From the NCBI RefSeq assembly GCF_018333235.1, contig NZ_BORP01000002.1:186001-250000 (forward strand): a stretch of 64,000 bases of DNA. The letters run 5' to 3'. The first letter of the stretch is position 1. The number at the start of each line of letters is the position of its first letter. The stretch is from Ornithinibacillus bavariensis. Its GTDB lineage: Bacteria > Bacillota > Bacilli > Bacillales > Amphibacillaceae. The notes under the pieces were generated by a model. It was not told the origin of the DNA and ran no database searches. It saw only the letters and a program-made list of their open reading frames with translations. The position numbers and the translations under genes are program-made. Positions 2,632 through 57,370 of this stretch are shown here, piece after piece.

Positions 2632-4639
2632 AGAGAAAAAACTCGTGACAGAACAATTGACACTGGAAGAACAAGAGGCATTAATGCAAAAGTATGATAC
2701 AGAATCCAATCAGAGAAATGTTACTGGTATTGCTGCTATTATTATATTCACGCTTCTGATATCATTTTCATTATTTCAGCTATATACAGGTTTCTTCGGT
2801 GCATATACTGCCTATATTCAACGAACGATTCACTTAGGCTTTGCCTTAGTTTTAATTTTTCTATTGTTTCCTGCAAGTAAAAAAGGAAATAAGAATCGAA
2901 ATAGGATTGCATGGTATGACTATGCCTTAGCATTAATTTCTTTTATCGTTTGTTTATACTGGCCTATTTTTTATGATTCACTTGTAAAGAACATTGGATC
3001 GATTAGTACTGTTCAAGTTATCATAGGTGGCCTTGCTATATTACTTGTATTAGAGGCAACTAGACGTGCGGTCGGTCTACCGATTACGATAATAGCTGGT
3101 GTTGCATTGCTATATGCTTTACTAGGCCCGTACATGCCAGGCATGTTTGCACATAGAGGATTAAATTTGAACCAATTGGTAAAAACAATGTTCTTTACCA
3201 CAGAAGGTATTCTCGGTACACCTCTTAAGGTATCATCGACATTTATTTTCCTATTCTTGTTATTTGGAGCATTCTTAGTGAAGACTGGGGTAGGAACCTA
3301 TTTTAACGACCTTGCAATTTCAATAGCAGGGAGGAGGACTGGTGGCCCGGCAAAGGTTGCAATCTTCTCCAGTGCATTAAACGGAACGATATCTGGTAGC
3401 TCAGTAGCGAACACGGTAACGACTGGGGCTTACACAATTCCGTTAATGAAAAGACTAGGGTATAAAAAGGAATTCGCTGGCGCTGTTGAAGCCGCCGCGT
3501 CTACCGGCGGCCAAATTATGCCACCGATTATGGGTGCTGCAGCATTTTTAATGATTGAATTTGCTGGGGTTCCTTATTGGGAAATAGCGAAGGCAGCGAT
3601 TATTCCAGCTATTTTATACTTCTCTGGTATTTGGATTATGACACATCTAGAAGCGAAGAAGACGGGATTGGTTGGACTACCGAAAGAAGAATTACCTTCA
3701 AAGAAGGAAGTATTTAAAAAAATACATTTACTAATACCGATCTTTGTCATTATTATTTTCCTATTCTTGGGTTACAGTATTGAGAGAACAGCTCTTTTAG
3801 GTATTCTCTCCGCTGTAGTGGTTAGTCTTTTCATGAAGGAAACAAGAATAACACCAAGAAAATTCGTTGACGCGCTAACTTCTGGTGCAAGAACTGCTTT
3901 AGGGGTAGCGGCAGCAACAGCCTGTGCTGGTATAATCGTTGGGGTAGTGACGAAGACTGGTCTTGGCCTTAAGCTTGGAAATGGGATAGTCGATATGGCT
4001 GGTACTCTAACAAGTAATGTGAATGTCCAGCTCTTACTGACTCTTTTATTTACGATGATTACATCGATCATTATCGGTATGGGCTCACCAACAACAGCTA
4101 ATTATATTATTACATCAACAATTGCATTACCGGCAATACTAGCTTTAAATGATCAACTTGATTTTGCAATTCCAGTTTTAGCTGCGCATATGTTTGTCTT
4201 TTATTTTGGTATTGTGGCTGATATTACTCCACCGGTTGCTCTTGCAGCATTTGCGGCATCGGGTATATCTGGAGGGGAACCAATTAGAACTGGTATTAAC
4301 GCCTCGAAATTGGCGATAGCTGCGTTCATAATTCCATATATGTTCGTTTTAAATCCACAAATGCTTATGATTGATGCATCATGGTTAGGTATAGTCTGGA
4401 TCTTTATTACAGCATTTACAGGAATGATAGCAGTGGGTGCCGGTTTAATTGGATACTGGTATAAAGGCCTTAATTGGATAGAACGTATCTTATCTGTTAT
4501 TACTGGATTATTATTGATGTATCCAGAAGGGTATTCTGATGCGATAGGATTAGTCTTATTTATTGGAATGATTGCTTACCAATTTATCTTTAAAAAAGAT
4601 CAAGGTGTTGGTCAGCCTGTGGAAGCCAAGGGTGCATAA
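2624..4639 (+). CDS. TRAP transporter fused permease (4TM + 12TM)
   Basis: This 671-residue polytopic membrane protein is the fused small and large permease subunit of a TAXI TRAP transporter. About four hydrophobic segments in the first 170 residues correspond to the small DctQ-like part; the rest is a DctM-like domain. Conserved features include SALNGTISGSSVANTVTTG, PPIMGAAAF and, in the second half, IIGMGSPTTANYI and DITPPVALAAFAASGI. Transport would be driven by an ion gradient, usually sodium in this family. The start ATG at 2624 follows an AAAGGAG site. A strong terminator closes the operon. Confidence 0.93.
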   Translation: MSKEKKLVTEQLTLEEQEALMQKYDTESNQRNVTGIAAIIIFTLLISFSLFQLYTGFFGAYTAYIQRTIHLGFALVLIFLLFPASKKGNKNRNRIAWYDYALALISFIVCLYWPIFYDSLVKNIGSISTVQVIIGGLAILLVLEATRRAVGLPITIIAGVALLYALLGPYMPGMFAHRGLNLNQLVKTMFFTTEGILGTPLKVSSTFIFLFLLFGAFLVKTGVGTYFNDLAISIAGRRTGGPAKVAIFSSALNGTISGSSVANTVTTGAYTIPLMKRLGYKKEFAGAVEAAASTGGQIMPPIMGAAAFLMIEFAGVPYWEIAKAAIIPAILYFSGIWIMTHLEAKKTGLVGLPKEELPSKKEVFKKIHLLIPIFVIIIFLFLGYSIERTALLGILSAVVVSLFMKETRITPRKFVDALTSGARTALGVAAATACAGIIVGVVTKTGLGLKLGNGIVDMAGTLTSNVNVQLLLTLLFTMITSIIIGMGSPTTANYIITSTIALPAILALNDQLDFAIPVLAAHMFVFYFGIVADITPPVALAAFAASGISGGEPIRTGINASKLAIAAFIIPYMFVLNPQMLMIDASWLGIVWIFITAFTGMIAVGAGLIGYWYKGLNWIERILSVITGLLLMYPEGYSDAIGLVLFIGMIAYQFIFKKDQGVGQPVEAKGA

Positions 4640-42512: not shown

Positions 42513-42682
42513 AAAAAAGCCCTCTTCCTAAGAAGAGGGCGCATAAATTACAGTGCCGTTCCTCCTCTTATCTTCCAGATCTGTTTGACCTGTAGGATTT
42601 AGCACCTTTTAAGGAAAGTTGTCTTTCGCCTAAGGTTGCCGGGCTTCATAGGGCCTATTCCCTCCACCGCTCTTGATAAGAG
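42513..42682 (-). ncRNA. SAM-I (S-box) riboswitch with terminator
   Basis: Read on the minus strand, the aptamer (42682-42565) opens with CTCTTATCAAGAGCGGTGGA and closes with GATAAGAG, forming the P1 helix. The invariant GCCCTATGAAGCCCGGCAAC segment is present. It is followed by a terminator stem GCCCTCTT / AAGAGGGC (42540-42519) and a T-run. SAM binding should favour termination, so metY-metX-hom is switched off when methionine is plentiful. Confidence 0.97.
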
Positions 42683-47960: not shown

Positions 47961-49382
47961 ATGGGTTTTTTAGAAGGGCTAGTTGATTCTATTAATGAAG
48001 TGTTATGGTCATACATACTTATTATTGTTCTGATTGGATTAGGATTATATTTCACAATTCGTACAAAGTTTATCCAGATTCTTAATTTTCCTGAAATGAT
48101 ACGTGTTTTGTTTGATAAGCGTACAATCGATGCATCAGGTAAAAAAGGTACATCCTCCTTTCAAGCATTTGCAATAAGTGCTGCTTCAAGAGTTGGAACA
48201 GGAAACCTTGCAGGAGTAGCCTCTGCTATAGCAGTAGGTGGACCAGGGGCAATTTTTTGGATGTGGGTCATTGCACTACTTGGTTCTGCATCTGGTTTTG
48301 TAGAAAGTACGTTAGCTCAAATTTATAAGGTGCCTGAGAAAAATCAATATCGTGGTGGGCCAGCATACTATATGGAAAAAGGTCTTAAAAATCGCTGGTT
48401 AGGAGTTGTTTTTGCTATCACGATTACGTTTACATATGGACTTGTATTTAATTCTGTACAATCAAATACAATTAGTTTAGCATTTGAAGGACAATTTAAT
48501 ATTTCGGAAGGCACAATAGCGGTTGTGTTGATAATACTAACGGCTGCCGTTATTTTCGGCGGGATAAAAAGCATTGCTAATGTGTCGCAGGTTATTGTTC
48601 CAATCATGGCAATTCTTTATTTGGCTATTGCTTTTTATGTAATAATCATCAATCTTGATGCAATCCCAGAGATATTCTCGTTAATTTTTGCAAATGCTTT
48701 TGGAATTAAAGAGGTAGCTGGAGGCGGCTTTGGAGCAGCTATTATGATGGGAATTAAGCGGGGGCTATTTTCGAATGAAGCCGGAATGGGTAGTGCACCA
48801 AATGCTGCAGCAACAGCAGAAGTGTCCCATCCAGTTAAACAAGGACTAATTCAGGCATTAGGGGTGTTTTTTGATACGTTATTAATTTGTTCGGCAACTG
48901 GATTTATTATCCTATCAGCAGGAGGTTATGCTGGCAGCAAACTAGACGGTATTCAATTAACCCAGAATGCCATTACACAGCATATAGGCCCATGGGCTGG
49001 CATATTTGTAGCAGTTGCTATATTTCTATTTGCCTACAGCTCGATTTTAGGTAACTATTATTACGGAGAAAGTAATATTGGATATATTAAAAATAGTCCA
49101 GGCTGGTTATTTATCTATCGATTAGCTGTATTAGCGATGGTGGCATTTGGAGCTCTAGCAAGCTTTGACTTTGTCTGGGCACTAGCCGATTTGACAATGG
49201 CAATCATGGCATTAATAAACCTTTATGCAATAATGAAACTATATAAAATTGTCCATCGAGTCCTTCAAGATTACCGAGAACAAAGGAGAGCTGGAAAGGA
49301 TCCAGTTTTCAATCGAGAAATATTAGATGATACATCTGGGATTGAATTTTGGGAGCCAGGTCAGGTGAAAGGAAAGGAATAG
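47961..49382 (+). CDS. Sodium:alanine symporter (AGCS family)
   Basis: This 473-residue membrane carrier has about 11 helices. It takes up alanine or glycine with sodium. I use ATG 47961 (AAAGGGGAAG upstream) rather than the upstream GTG frame. Family features: GTGNLAGVASAIAVGGPGA with the substrate/sodium site, ESTLAQIYK, GGPAYYMEKGL, and GIKRGLFSNEAGMGSAPNAAA. It resembles Bacillus AlsT. It is monocistronic, with a terminator in front and behind. Confidence 0.92.
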   Translation: MGFLEGLVDSINEVLWSYILIIVLIGLGLYFTIRTKFIQILNFPEMIRVLFDKRTIDASGKKGTSSFQAFAISAASRVGTGNLAGVASAIAVGGPGAIFWMWVIALLGSASGFVESTLAQIYKVPEKNQYRGGPAYYMEKGLKNRWLGVVFAITITFTYGLVFNSVQSNTISLAFEGQFNISEGTIAVVLIILTAAVIFGGIKSIANVSQVIVPIMAILYLAIAFYVIIINLDAIPEIFSLIFANAFGIKEVAGGGFGAAIMMGIKRGLFSNEAGMGSAPNAAATAEVSHPVKQGLIQALGVFFDTLLICSATGFIILSAGGYAGSKLDGIQLTQNAITQHIGPWAGIFVAVAIFLFAYSSILGNYYYGESNIGYIKNSPGWLFIYRLAVLAMVAFGALASFDFVWALADLTMAIMALINLYAIMKLYKIVHRVLQDYREQRRAGKDPVFNREILDDTSGIEFWEPGQVKGKE

Positions 49383-49429: not shown

Positions 49430-49764
49430 AGAAGGGCTGTAAGCATCATTTTAACAGAAGATAAGGTTTGAAATGAATCATAGAAGGACTGTAAGCATCA
49501 TTTCAACCGTAGAAGAGGACTGAAATGAATCATAGAAGGGCTATAAACATCATTTCAACAGTAAATAAGGTTTGAAATGAATCATAGAAGGACTGTAAGC
49601 ATCATTTCAACCGTAGAAGAGGATTGAAATGAACGATAGAAGGGCTATAAACATCATTTCAACCGTAGAATAGGATTGAAATGAATCACAGAAAGACTGT
49701 AAGCATCATTTCAACAGTAAATAAGGTTTGAAATGAATGATAGAAAGAATATACACATCATAAC
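49430..49764. repeat. 52-bp tandem repeat array, six full copies plus a partial one
   Basis: Copies start at 49430, 49482, 49534, 49586, 49638, 49690 and 49742 (partial), each exactly 52 bp. Every full unit holds an inverted repeat of the type CATTTCAA / TTGAAATG around a 13-base centre. Two variants alternate in copies 1-4 (one with GCTATAAACATC and AACAGTAAATAAGG, the other with GACTGTAAGCATC and AACCGTAGAAGAGG); copies 5 and 6 are hybrids. This suggests growth by 104-bp dimers followed by exchange. There is no ORF in the array. Confidence 0.93.
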
Positions 49765-49789: not shown

Positions 49790-49818
49790 TTGAAATATTT
49801 AAAGTAAACGCTTACAAT
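49790..49818 (+). promoter_or_regulatory. Promoter of the hut operon overlapped by a cre site
   Basis: TTGAAA (49790-49795), 17-bp spacer, TACAAT (49813-49818). The minus-strand TTGTAAGCGTTTACT (49817-49803) fits WTGNAANCGNWNNCW at all fixed positions and covers the spacer and -10, so bound CcpA would exclude RNA polymerase. Confidence 0.8.
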
Positions 49819-49855
49819 GAAAAGTAAGAATAGTGAGAACATATGAGGTGCTGGA

Positions 49856-49915
49856 ATGGTGATTCATAAACTGAAGTATCATCTACAGCTTAATAATCAA
49901 GGAGGCTTGGTCTAA
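49856..49915 (+). CDS. Putative hut leader peptide (19 residues)
   Basis: A short ORF starts at ATG 49856, five bases after GAGGTG, and encodes MVIHKLKYHLQLNNQGGLV. It has His at positions 4 and 9. Its last five codons (from 49901) form the 5' arm of the hut terminator, and its TAA stop (49913-49915) lies in the terminator loop. A ribosome that finishes the ORF would cover the 5' arm; one held at the second His codon (49880-49882) would leave the stem free. This arrangement fits translation-controlled attenuation, but that it is translated is inference. Confidence 0.45.
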   Translation: MVIHKLKYHLQLNNQGGLV

Positions 49916-49937
49916 GGATCGCAAGCCTCCTTTTTAT
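49899..49937 (+). terminator. Terminator in the hut leader, before hutH
   Basis: The 11-bp stem AAGGAGGCTTG / CAAGCCTCCTT with a 12-base loop is followed by a T-run (TTTTTATTT). It lies between the hut promoter and hutH, so hut expression must depend on read-through or antitermination. Confidence 0.9.
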
Positions 49938-49982
49938 TTGAACACTTTAACTTGCTAAAACGATACTATGGAGGTGTAGGAA

Positions 49983-51501
49983 ATGGTTGTATTAACCGGG
50001 AATTCATTAACCTTGGAAGATATAAAGCGTGTTGTAATGGAGCACGAGTCTGTTACCCTTTGTGATATTCAACGAAAGAAGATAGAACTAAATCGGCAAA
50101 CAGTAGAAGAAATGCTAAATGAAAAACGTGTGATGTATGGAATTAATACAGGTTTCGGAAAATTTAGTGATGTGCTGATAGAGGAAGATGATCTAGAAGA
50201 GCTTCAACTCAATTTAATCCATTCACATGCATGTGGGGTGGGAGAACCATTTGATGAAAAAATAAGTAAGGTGATGGTTTTACTGAGAGCAAATGCGCTT
50301 GCACAGGGCTATTCAGGAGTTCGACCAGAGCTTATTCAACAATTAATCGATATCCTGAATGTTGGTATAGCACCAGTGATTCCGCAACAAGGGTCACTTG
50401 GTGCGAGTGGCGATTTAGCTCCGCTCTCCCATCTAGCACTTGTTTTACTAGGTGAGGGTGAAGTGTTTTATCAAGGGAAAAGGATGCATACATTGGATGC
50501 CTTTCAACAAGTGGGTTTAATACCAATATCACTTAAGGCAAAGGAAGGCTTAGCACTCATTAATGGGACACAAGCAATGACGGCAGTTGGAGTTATCACG
50601 TATTTAGAGATGGAAAAGCTTTTATATCAAAGTGAGCTTACGGCTGCCATGACAATGGAAGGATTACACGGAATCATGGATGCATTTGATGCAGATGTTC
50701 ACCGTGTAAGGGGACATCAGGAGCAAATGGAAGTAGCGAAACGCATACGAGAGATTTTACGTGATAGTGAATTGACAACAGCGCAAGGAGAAATGCGTGT
50801 TCAAGATGCCTATACGATACGATGTATTCCTCAGGTTCTAGGGGCGTGCTGGCAGACACTACATTATGCAAAAGAAAAACTAACGATAGAGATAAATGCT
50901 GTTACGGATAATCCATTAATCTTCTCCGATGACAATAAGGTAATCTCTGGTGGAAATTTTCACGGTGAGCCAATTGCTTTTACAATGGACTTTTTAAAGC
51001 TAGGTATAGCAGAGACTGCAAATATATCAGAAAGAAGAATCGAAAGACTGGTGAACCCACAATTAAATGATCTTCCTGCTTTCTTAAGTCCAAAACCAGG
51101 CTTAGAGTCAGGAGCAATGATTATGCAATATAGTGCGGCTTCTCTTGTGTCAGAAAATAAAACACTAGCACATCCAGCAAGTGTCGATTCCATTCCGTCG
51201 TCTGCTAATCAAGAGGATCATGTGAGCATGGGAACAATAGCAGCAAGGCATGCACTATCTATGCTGCAAAATACAAGACGTGTCATAGCAATAGAACTTA
51301 TATGTGCCATGCAAGCAGTTGAATATCGCGGTATCGAAAAAATGGCAGAGAAAACGCGATTATTTTATGAAAAGGCAAGATACATCGTTCCTAGTATTAC
51401 AAAGGATCGAATTTTCTCCATAGATATTGAAAATTTAGCGGATTGGTTAAAAGAGTCACAGGAAAGTGATGTTACGAATTTAAAAGGAGAGGTGAGGGTT
51501 T

Positions 51502-51509
<8 letters not shown>
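49983..51509 (+). CDS. hutH: Histidine ammonia-lyase
   Basis: This 508-residue enzyme removes ammonia from L-histidine to give urocanate, the first step of histidine degradation. The self-made MIO cofactor arises from Ala141-Ser142-Gly143, seen in [13 protein letters not shown]. Other family blocks: [25 protein letters not shown]-like [15 protein letters not shown], and [10 protein letters not shown]. Ribosome site GGAGGTG. It opens the hutHUIG operon behind a cre-overlapped promoter and a leader terminator; the hutP gene that precedes hutH in B. subtilis is absent here. Confidence 0.96.
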
Positions 51510-55357
<3,848 letters not shown>

Positions 55358-55359
<2 letters not shown>

Positions 55360-55982: not shown

Positions 55983-56125
55983 TAACAATTTTAACATAAC
56001 GTAATGAAGAAGTAAAATACAAAAAATGACATAAAAGCTGGTTATACGAATAGAAGTTAGTTGGATATTTTAGTATTTTGTGAAATAATAACAATACAAT
56101 GAATTTAATATTTGGAGGTTTCAAT

Positions 56126-57370
56126 ATGGTATCACAGCAAACACAAGAGAAATATGCAGAATTAGCTTTACGTAAAGGTGTAAATATACAAAAAGGTCAA
56201 GCATTAATGATTAACTCTACCATTGAGGGTGCAGAGTTTACAAAGATTGTTGCAAAAAAGGCATATGAGTTAGGTGCAAAGGATGTACATATTATCTGGG
56301 GAGATGATGATTTAACACTTTGGAAATATCAATATGCTCCAGATGAGGTATTAGAGCACTTTCCAGAGTGGAAGGTAAAGCTACACGATATGTACGCTGA
56401 AGATGGAGCGGCAGTTCTTTCGATTCGATCAACAAATCCAGATTTATTAAAGGATATTGATCCTACAAAAGTAGCTAAAGCAAATAAAGCAGCAGCACTT
56501 GCAATGACAAATTTTCGTAAGTATACAATGAACGACAAAATTACATGGTCTATTATTTCGATTCCAACAGGTGATTGGGCACAGAAAATTTTCCCGGAAA
56601 AATCTCGTGAAGATGCAATAGCAAGTCTCTGGGATGCTATCATTAAAATTGTTCGTGTTGACCAAGAAGATCCGATTAAAGCATGGGATGAGCATAATGC
56701 AACCTTAAAAACAGCTCGTGAAATCTTAAATGATAAGAACTATAAAAAGCTGGTATTCAAAGCACCAGGTACAGATTTGGAAATGGAGCTTCCAGAAGGA
56801 CATATTTGGAAGGGTGGTTCTGCAGTATCAGAAAAGGGGATTACATTTAATCCAAACATGCCAACAGAGGAAGTTTTCTCCATGCCACATAAATATGGTG
56901 TAAATGGAACGGTATCAAGTACAAAGCCATTAAATTATGGTGGAAGCCTTATCGACAACTTTAGCCTAACATTCAAAGACGGAAAGGTTGTTGATTTCAA
57001 GGCTGAAGTAGGTGAAGATACATTAAAACATCTACTTGAAACAGATGAAGGTGCAAGTCGTATCGGAGAAATTGCTCTAGTGCCACACGAATCTCCTGTT
57101 TCTCAATCAGGCTTAATCTTCTACAACACATTATTTGATGAAAATGCTTCTTGTCATATCGCACTTGGTAAAGCGTACCCAACGAATGTGAAAGGTGGAT
57201 CAGCTATGAGTGAGGTGGAACTAGATAAGGCTGGTGTCAATGATAGCCTTGTACACGTGGACTTCATGATTGGCTCTGAGAAGCTTGATATCGATGGTGT
57301 AAAAGCAGATGGATCAACAGAACCGGTATTCCGAAATGGAACATGGGCATTAGATATGAAAGGGAAATAA
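56126..57370 (+). CDS. M29 family aminopeptidase (AmpS/PepS-like)
   Basis: This 414-residue cytosolic metallo-aminopeptidase of the thermophilic aminopeptidase family removes N-terminal residues from peptides. It has the co-catalytic metal site motifs in EEVFSMPHKYGVNGTV and the late FDENASCHIALGKAYP, with conserved Glu, His and Asp. ATG 56126 (TTGGAGG seven bases upstream) is preferred over an upstream frame at 56099. It would finish digestion of peptides imported by the Opp systems. A strong terminator follows. Confidence 0.93.
   Translation: MVSQQTQEKYAELALRKGVNIQKGQALMINSTIEGAEFTKIVAKKAYELGAKDVHIIWGDDDLTLWKYQYAPDEVLEHFPEWKVKLHDMYAEDGAAVLSIRSTNPDLLKDIDPTKVAKANKAAALAMTNFRKYTMNDKITWSIISIPTGDWAQKIFPEKSREDAIASLWDAIIKIVRVDQEDPIKAWDEHNATLKTAREILNDKNYKKLVFKAPGTDLEMELPEGHIWKGGSAVSEKGITFNPNMPTEEVFSMPHKYGVNGTVSSTKPLNYGGSLIDNFSLTFKDGKVVDFKAEVGEDTLKHLLETDEGASRIGEIALVPHESPVSQSGLIFYNTLFDENASCHIALGKAYPTNVKGGSAMSEVELDKAGVNDSLVHVDFMIGSEKLDIDGVKADGSTEPVFRNGTWALDMKGK

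Follow-up and report, generated by a model that had tools for sequence, protein, structure and literature searches.

How histidine degradation is switched on in a bacterium in which the regulator HutP is not found is the question raised by the hut operon of Ornithinibacillus bavariensis. In Bacillus subtilis, termination ahead of the same operon is prevented in a HutP-dependent and histidine-dependent manner (consulted portion of PMC7430163), whereas in the 64,000-nucleotide stretch of DNA analysed here (the window) no hutP is found and a short leader open reading frame (ORF) takes its place. According to the initial annotation, this ORF possibly encodes a histidine-responsive leader peptide whose completed translation would permit read-through into hutHUIG. 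The sequence comparisons described below support this interpretation, because relatives retain the ORF together with its entry into the terminator, no HutP is found, histidine codons accumulate in frame, hutP and the ORF exchange with each other, and no conserved antiterminator is found. Two of the refuting conditions named in that annotation, a leader that is not conserved and a hutP gene elsewhere, were checked and neither was encountered.

The hut operon and its leader

The features of the locus, in coordinates of the window, are as follows.

49790–49818, + strand: sigma-A-type hut promoter, TTGAAA-N17-TACAAT (consensus match only)
49802–49817, + strand: cre-like CcpA site AAGTAAACGCTTACAA, overlapping the -10 region, one mismatch (read from the sequence)
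49845–49850, + strand: Shine-Dalgarno sequence GAGGTG of the leader ORF (anti-SD duplex -9.3 kcal/mol)
49856–49915, + strand: leader ORF of 19 codons from ATG 49856, translated as MVIHKLKYHLQLNNQGGLV and stop
49865–49867, + strand: His codon 4 of the leader ORF (translation)
49880–49882, + strand: His codon 9 of the leader ORF, separated from the stem by 16 nt (translation)
49899–49909, + strand: 5' arm of the predicted intrinsic terminator, within the ORF (folding; covariation in 33 relatives)
49913–49915, + strand: TAA that ends the leader ORF, within the loop of the terminator (sequence)
49922–49937, + strand: 3' arm of the terminator (49922–49932) and U-rich tail (sequence, folding)
49945–49959, + strand: CTTTA-N6-TAAA motif, between the terminator and the hutH ribosome site (recurrence in relatives)
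49970–49976, + strand: Shine-Dalgarno sequence GGAGGTG of hutH (sequence)
49983–51509, + strand: hutH, histidine ammonia-lyase (NCBIfam equivalog TIGR01225, cut-off passed)
51502–53154, + strand: hutU, urocanate hydratase (NCBIfam equivalog TIGR01228, cut-off passed)
53159–54412, + strand: hutI, imidazolonepropionase (NCBIfam equivalog TIGR01224, cut-off passed)
54409–55359, + strand: hutG, formimidoylglutamase (NCBIfam equivalog TIGR01227, cut-off passed)

Matches of the promoter type are not rare by chance, 1.4 being expected in the same scan. The cre-like sites were called, here and in relatives, against the cre consensus, and 24 of 33 leaders of the family have such a site, with up to two mismatches, in the 75 nt that precede the ORF. 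The region right before the promoter (49430–49745) carries a tandem 52-bp unit in about six copies, each with TTTCAA/TTGAAA inverted arms; the unit has 24 matches in the genome, the array included, and some in four of ten other genomes of the genus.

The 19-codon ORF with its own GAGGTG and its ATG at 49856, as described in the initial annotation, is present in the sequence, translation places histidine at codons 4 and 9, and sequence and folding agree that the last codons form the 5' arm of the terminator and that the stop codon lies in the loop. The leader region folds better than shuffled versions of itself (z -2.49; 4 of 200 shuffles were equally good). The hairpin was found by folding, a strict terminator pattern with a loop limit of 8 having missed it. 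The upstream gene, which encodes an agcS-type amino acid carrier, ends at 49382, from which we infer that the terminator belongs to the hut transcript.

Other known types of leader were considered and rejected. A search of the window at Rfam gathering scores returned neither a his T-box nor the his leader RF00514, which rules out both; its sole match is a SAM riboswitch elsewhere (42565–42682, - strand, 89.6 bits). A riboswitch within the hut leader is rejected as well, only about 20 nt lying between the inferred transcription start and the Shine-Dalgarno sequence.

The statement that hutP is missing agrees with the searches: a search with the HutP profile PF09021 gave no match in the genome (96.7% complete), while the B. 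subtilis positive control was matched, and none in any of the 11 genomes of the genus. HutP encoded elsewhere in the genome is rejected on this basis. Over the family, PF09021 matches occur in 26 of 159 genomes and HutH (E 1e-100 or better) in 65 of 159. Only one of the 33 leader-bearing family genomes has a hutP match, and this genome (G107) contains two hut loci, one of each kind.

Conservation of the leader and its exchange with HutP

For comparison, up to 1.2 kb upstream of hutH was taken from 68 family loci (L015–L082), 80 named loci, 30 loci of Brevibacillaceae and 60 loci of other families, the last picked by us for breadth from 214 genomes of the class with a match. Brevibacillaceae is our term for a family (f55) in which the HutH of one member, G281, is identical to that of Brevibacillus dissolubilis (L134). 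The test set consists of those hutP-less loci in which a terminator lies no more than 110 nt from hutH, and hutP was called by phmmer, by a loose motif or by a stricter motif, depending on the locus set. Excluded were L134 as a copy of L163, and L001–L014 as short copies of refetched loci; 10 hutP-less family loci, one Brevibacillaceae locus and 51 others have no terminator by this rule and lie outside the test. By eye, the Brevibacillaceae locus L164, which has no terminator by the rule, carries a similar leader. In each locus, the start codon with the best Shine-Dalgarno sequence defined the ORF, a choice blind to the downstream sequence.

The alignment of relatives that the initial annotation suggested as a check bears out the overlap of ORF and terminator. 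The ORF chosen blindly enters the terminator in 33 of 33 family loci, in 29 of 29 Brevibacillaceae loci and in 31 of 45 other hutP-less loci, and the stop codon lies inside the hairpin in 31, 24 and 19 of these leaders. Shuffled stretches stay open to the stem in 35% (family) and 46% (Brevibacillaceae) of cases, and for the family the open frame into the stem therefore exceeds chance. In the real stretches, the two remaining frames stay open in 19 and 7 of the 33 family leaders and in 21 and 16 of the 29 from Brevibacillaceae. The stem itself varies in a compensated manner, 7 of its 11 consensus pairs changing on both sides across the 33 family leaders. In the remaining 14 of the 45 other hutP-less loci, no ORF runs into the terminator; these include L210, L211 and L214, which carry the loose hutP motif yet were counted as hutP-less.

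The features by which leader-peptide attenuation is recognized are thus found together: an ORF with its own ribosome site before hutH, an in-frame excess of histidine codons (see below) and a predicted intrinsic terminator between the ORF and hutH. Kept in the leader are its ribosome site, a frame that stays open into the stem and the stem itself, with the histidine codons as a tendency.

On the HutH tree, hutP and the leader ORF have taken each other's place several times. On this tree of 85 loci, the states hutP, leader and neither need 14 changes, against a mean of 35.8 when shuffled; the leader label needs 9 changes, at least five of which are forced by starred branches. The loci L035 (hutP) and L040 (leader) are sisters with a support of 100. 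For this analysis, L083 and L164 were assigned to the leader state by hand, and L107 was scored as neither, though a short upstream piece shows the end of a HutP. The leader thus appears where HutP could be. Such an ORF was found in none of 52 hutP-bearing loci of one set; in a second set, 18 loci carry the loose hutP motif, and a single one of them (L236) gave an ORF match. The idea that the ORF might be the leftover start of a hutP gene finds no plain likeness to build on, the HutP of L039 probably starting with MPLNRNHLIGKEAIL.

Two further observations were made in these loci. In seven hutP-less hut operons (L194, L200, L205, L206, L209, L219 and L252), the terminator follows soon after the apparent promoter and a leader ORF is not evident, and by eye L205, L206 and L252 have GGATTGGGT...ACCTGATCC stems in common. 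The hutH of L038 (G177) contains an in-frame TGA, which may reflect a broken gene, a sequencing error or something else.

Histidine codons and the proposed mode of control

Between the ATG and the stem, the histidine codons of the family leaders are distributed over frames 0, +1 and +2 as 44, 10 and 16 (429 codons in frame 0), and histidine is the residue most enriched over dinucleotide shuffles (z 6.0), followed by glutamine (z 3.5). In the other lineages, a group of 31 leaders reduced to 29 by the removal of two TTG starts, the distribution is 38, 17 and 13, and the enrichment of histidine (z 4.2) lies just below that of cysteine (z 4.4). In Brevibacillaceae it is 45, 24 and 34, a weak excess (45 against 39.4 in shuffles, z 1.0) which leans on near-identical species. 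When a single family leader per genus is counted (the first listed of each of 14 genera), the numbers are 17, 4 and 5 (p 8e-4), with random draws giving means of 15.2, 3.9 and 4.6. A set of 20 diverse lineages gives 31, 7 and 9 with a p of 5e-6, which is too favourable, since these lineages were hand-picked from known terminator-entering leaders whose peptides had already been seen (21 were named, one of them unusable). Histidine is the top-ranked residue over all 91 leaders too, and makes up 10% of leader residues compared with 2.0% in the long ORFs of the window. Glutamine, arginine, lysine and cysteine are enriched as well in some groups.

At least one histidine codon precedes the stem in 26 of 33 family leaders, 24 of 29 Brevibacillaceae leaders and 21 of 29 others. 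None does so in 7, 5 and 8 leaders of these groups, or 20 of 91 in total, and the seven family cases suggest that histidine sensing may not be universal. Histidine stands at codons 4 and 9 also in L026, L030, L031, L037, L038 and L082; at the histidine-rich extreme are the leaders of Brevibacillus dissolubilis (MVHIHRHCHDNQIYIWPRG), L202 (MRNCIGSHLHGHRHLNTGQPHTRFFFQRD) and L216 (MMKNNTQPNNHCHLHRRFKEVR), each followed by a stop codon.

The sequence of the peptide is not kept in these leaders, all three frames running into the stem: the 5' arm is read in its three frames by 26, 4 and 3 of the 33 family leaders and by 16, 10 and 3 of the 29 Brevibacillaceae leaders. Close pairs show no excess of synonymous changes (2 synonymous and 18 non-synonymous in the family, 12 and 85 in Brevibacillaceae), so that codons other than those for histidine are not visibly kept. 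A codon-position test gave no support for selection on the peptide; the Brevibacillaceae pairs, which are not independent of each other, change most at position 2. By eye, a CAATCGCATA/CAACCGCATA stretch (Q-S/P-H-I in frame) recurs a short way before the terminator in Paenibacillus and other lineages (L196, L208, L217, L246, L248 and L122), and nearly the same letters are found in a different frame in L212 and L249.

The ribosome covers roughly 12 nt ahead of its A site. In 67 of 71 histidine-bearing leaders, 9 nt or more separate the end of the first histidine codon from the stem, and the stop codon lies at a median depth of 13 nt (family), 18 nt (Brevibacillaceae) or 17 nt (others) into the hairpin. 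With this coverage, the stem would remain accessible while a ribosome waits at the first histidine codon, whereas a ribosome that has arrived at the stop codon would lie over the 5' arm. In the other 4 of the 71 leaders, the stem begins so soon after the first histidine codon that it should be covered by a ribosome stalled there. This spacing is compatible with the logic of the initial annotation and does not discriminate, since first codons tend to lie upstream anyway. No conserved antiterminator was detected: the consensus structure of the 33 family leaders consists of the terminator alone, and complementarity between the leader and the 5' arm does not exceed that in shuffles (at least 7 pairs in 10 of 33, 1 of 29 and 6 of 31 leaders, against 24–29% expected). 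A hairpin that folding draws inside the ORF of O. bavariensis is accordingly not among the conserved elements.

Taken together, a mode of control may be proposed in which RNA polymerase leaves a seemingly CcpA-sensitive promoter and soon meets the intrinsic terminator, while translation begun at GAGGTG-ATG brings a ribosome towards this hairpin. With charged tRNA-His at hand, the ribosome would reach the stop codon in the loop in time and cover the 5' arm, the hairpin would not form and hutHUIG would be transcribed. When histidine is short, the ribosome would wait at histidine codon 4 or 9 with its leading edge upstream of the stem, the terminator would form on the free stem and hut would be off. 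Speculatively, the ribosome may normally lag, so that only decoding of histidine at full speed wins the race. We consider translation-dependent antitermination at the hut leader well supported and very likely, and the leader is probably, in its entirety, a sign-inverted ribosome attenuator which charged tRNA-His turns on and stalling at histidine codons turns off. From the sequence we infer translation of the ORF, masking by the ribosome as the means of antitermination, histidyl-tRNA as the signal and the sign of the response. The leaders without histidine before the stem and the other hutP-less loci without an ORF into the terminator, or without a terminator by the rule used, count against the proposal. 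So do the enrichment of further residues in some groups, the weak histidine excess in Brevibacillaceae, the lack of a synonymous excess in close pairs and the four leaders in which a stalled ribosome should cover the stem. Furthermore, transcription and translation are only loosely coupled in B. subtilis, which makes the timing uncertain, and tRNA-His charging may not tell enough histidine from excess, for which it would be an odd proxy.

The leaders that lack a histidine codon before the stem suggest an alternative in which the ORF is a general sensor of translation: any well-translated leader would antiterminate, slow translation for whatever reason would turn hut off, and histidine codons would be secondary or an occasional trim. 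The enrichment of other residues in some groups fits such a sensor, as does the open frame into the stem, which every leader of the family and of Brevibacillaceae retains. We nevertheless regard it as unlikely, since histidine ranks first in the family, over all 91 leaders and in the count by genus, and since the leader exchanges with a histidine sensor, HutP. The ribosome might also cover the 5' arm by arresting near the stop codon, as on a TnaC-like arrest peptide, which would suit a catabolic operon induced by excess substrate, as is tnaC. An arrest peptide needs fixed residues, however, whereas the hut peptides vary at their end, and the upstream histidine codons would have no role. The use of the stem in three frames, together with mostly non-synonymous change, rules out a conserved arrest peptide, and arrest in general appears quite improbable.

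The ORF could further be incidental if an RNA- or DNA-binding regulator acted on the leader, for example through the terminator or through the motif downstream of it. The strict motif CTTTA-N6-TAAA is kept in 30 of 33 family leaders, with 0.12 expected over 43 hutP-less loci; its arms, CTTTA-N6-TAAA(G), are nearly invariant and its middle is free, and it may be a protein-binding site. In some Bacilli, moreover, the hut terminator lies close to the apparent promoter and a clear ORF is lacking. Such a regulator would leave the open frame in all 33 family leaders and the in-frame histidine excess unexplained, and we give it a very low probability. Situated downstream of the terminator, the motif is also present in 9 of 68 hutP-bearing loci (and in 9 of 126 other hutP-less loci), so that it need not concern termination. 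Ordinary attenuation of the biosynthetic type, in which histidine starvation gives read-through by way of an antiterminator, draws on the fact that leader peptides with histidine codons and terminators are the hallmark of his attenuators, some in Firmicutes included (consulted portion of PMC9413887). Its sign is wrong for a degradation operon, and without a conserved antiterminator its logic has no visible structure to act through; it is scarcely credible here.

Related systems and leader-like sequences elsewhere

Textbook amino-acid leader attenuators turn biosynthesis on when charged tRNA is scarce. If the sign-inverted reading of the hut leader is right, these components, without the antiterminator, would serve degradation with the opposite sign in many Bacilli, replacing the well-studied protein HutP, and the sign of attenuation would be easily inverted. 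Hut operons without HutP would thereby be supplied with a mechanism, and such leaders would provide a test of whether, in Bacillus-like bacteria, the ribosome keeps close enough to RNA polymerase to govern termination within a short leader. More generally, we lean slightly towards a class of inverted attenuators in which amino-acid sufficiency, perceived through uninterrupted translation of the cognate codons, turns a degradation operon on with neither antiterminator nor sensor protein; this class would have been exchanged repeatedly with HutP across Bacilli, and nothing but scattered histidine codons and a translated terminator arm would recur in it.

TnaC, the leader peptide of the tryptophanase operon, likewise precedes a degradative operon which is read through in substrate excess. 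It is a conserved arrest peptide and involves Rho, whereas the hut peptide is not conserved and the hut terminator is intrinsic. Closer in layout is pyrBI of Escherichia coli, whose leader ORF, pyrL, runs into its terminator. As in this type of attenuator, the 5' arm of the hut terminator lies within the ORF, which is presumably translated, and in both a close-following ribosome would prevent the terminator. pyrBI senses UTP through pausing of RNA polymerase and controls biosynthesis, whereas the codons of the hut leader point to histidine and the operon is degradative. That a ribosome can mask the terminator is established for pyrBI, where termination in cells without EF-P rises once a stall site has been engineered ahead of the pyrL terminator (consulted portion of PMC5021804); this engineered stall amounts to a synthetic version of the mechanism proposed for hut.

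The attenuators of his biosynthesis, those of Proteobacteria (RF00514) as well as those of Firmicutes, share with the hut leader a short peptide with histidine codons and an intrinsic terminator before the first gene. Such attenuators are described in the consulted portion of PMC9413887 for the B. cereus group, Peptostreptococcaceae, Lutispora and Erysipelotrichales, with runs of three to five consecutive histidine codons and an antiterminator, the operon being turned on by starvation. In the hut leaders, by contrast, the histidine codons are mostly scattered, no antiterminator is conserved and starvation should turn the operon off. The same portion of that paper names hut once, for a HisR cluster in Oscillibacter. 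No report of a leader peptide for hut was found in the sections searched of openly licensed PMC papers. The principle of attenuation is known from pyrBI, and its application to hut is apparently unreported.

Further copies of the leader were sought with a leader model (R1) over 156 genomes of the family. In the genome of O. bavariensis, R1 matched the hut leader alone. At E 1.6e-5 or better, it gave 32 matches in the family, comprising 31 hut leaders and one relic, which is found in G119. Nine matches are weaker (E 6e-4 to 0.01): the one in G105 is the hut leader L047, five that were inspected do not lie before hutH (G021, G149, G070, G081 and the second match of G176), and the remaining three are in G077, G162 and G142. 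L265, inspected on account of a DNA match, is an unrelated terminator.

The relic in G119, a genome of the Oceanobacillus genus with no hutH match, lies at 3139–3171 of L261 (- strand). Its terminator is kept, and its ORF, MLKKNSYATT followed by a stop codon, closes right before the stem. This is, in a single case, the pattern expected if the overlap of ORF and terminator is kept only for hut. Close downstream of the relic follows a gene that resembles the one at 56099–57370 of the window, which presumably encodes an aminopeptidase.
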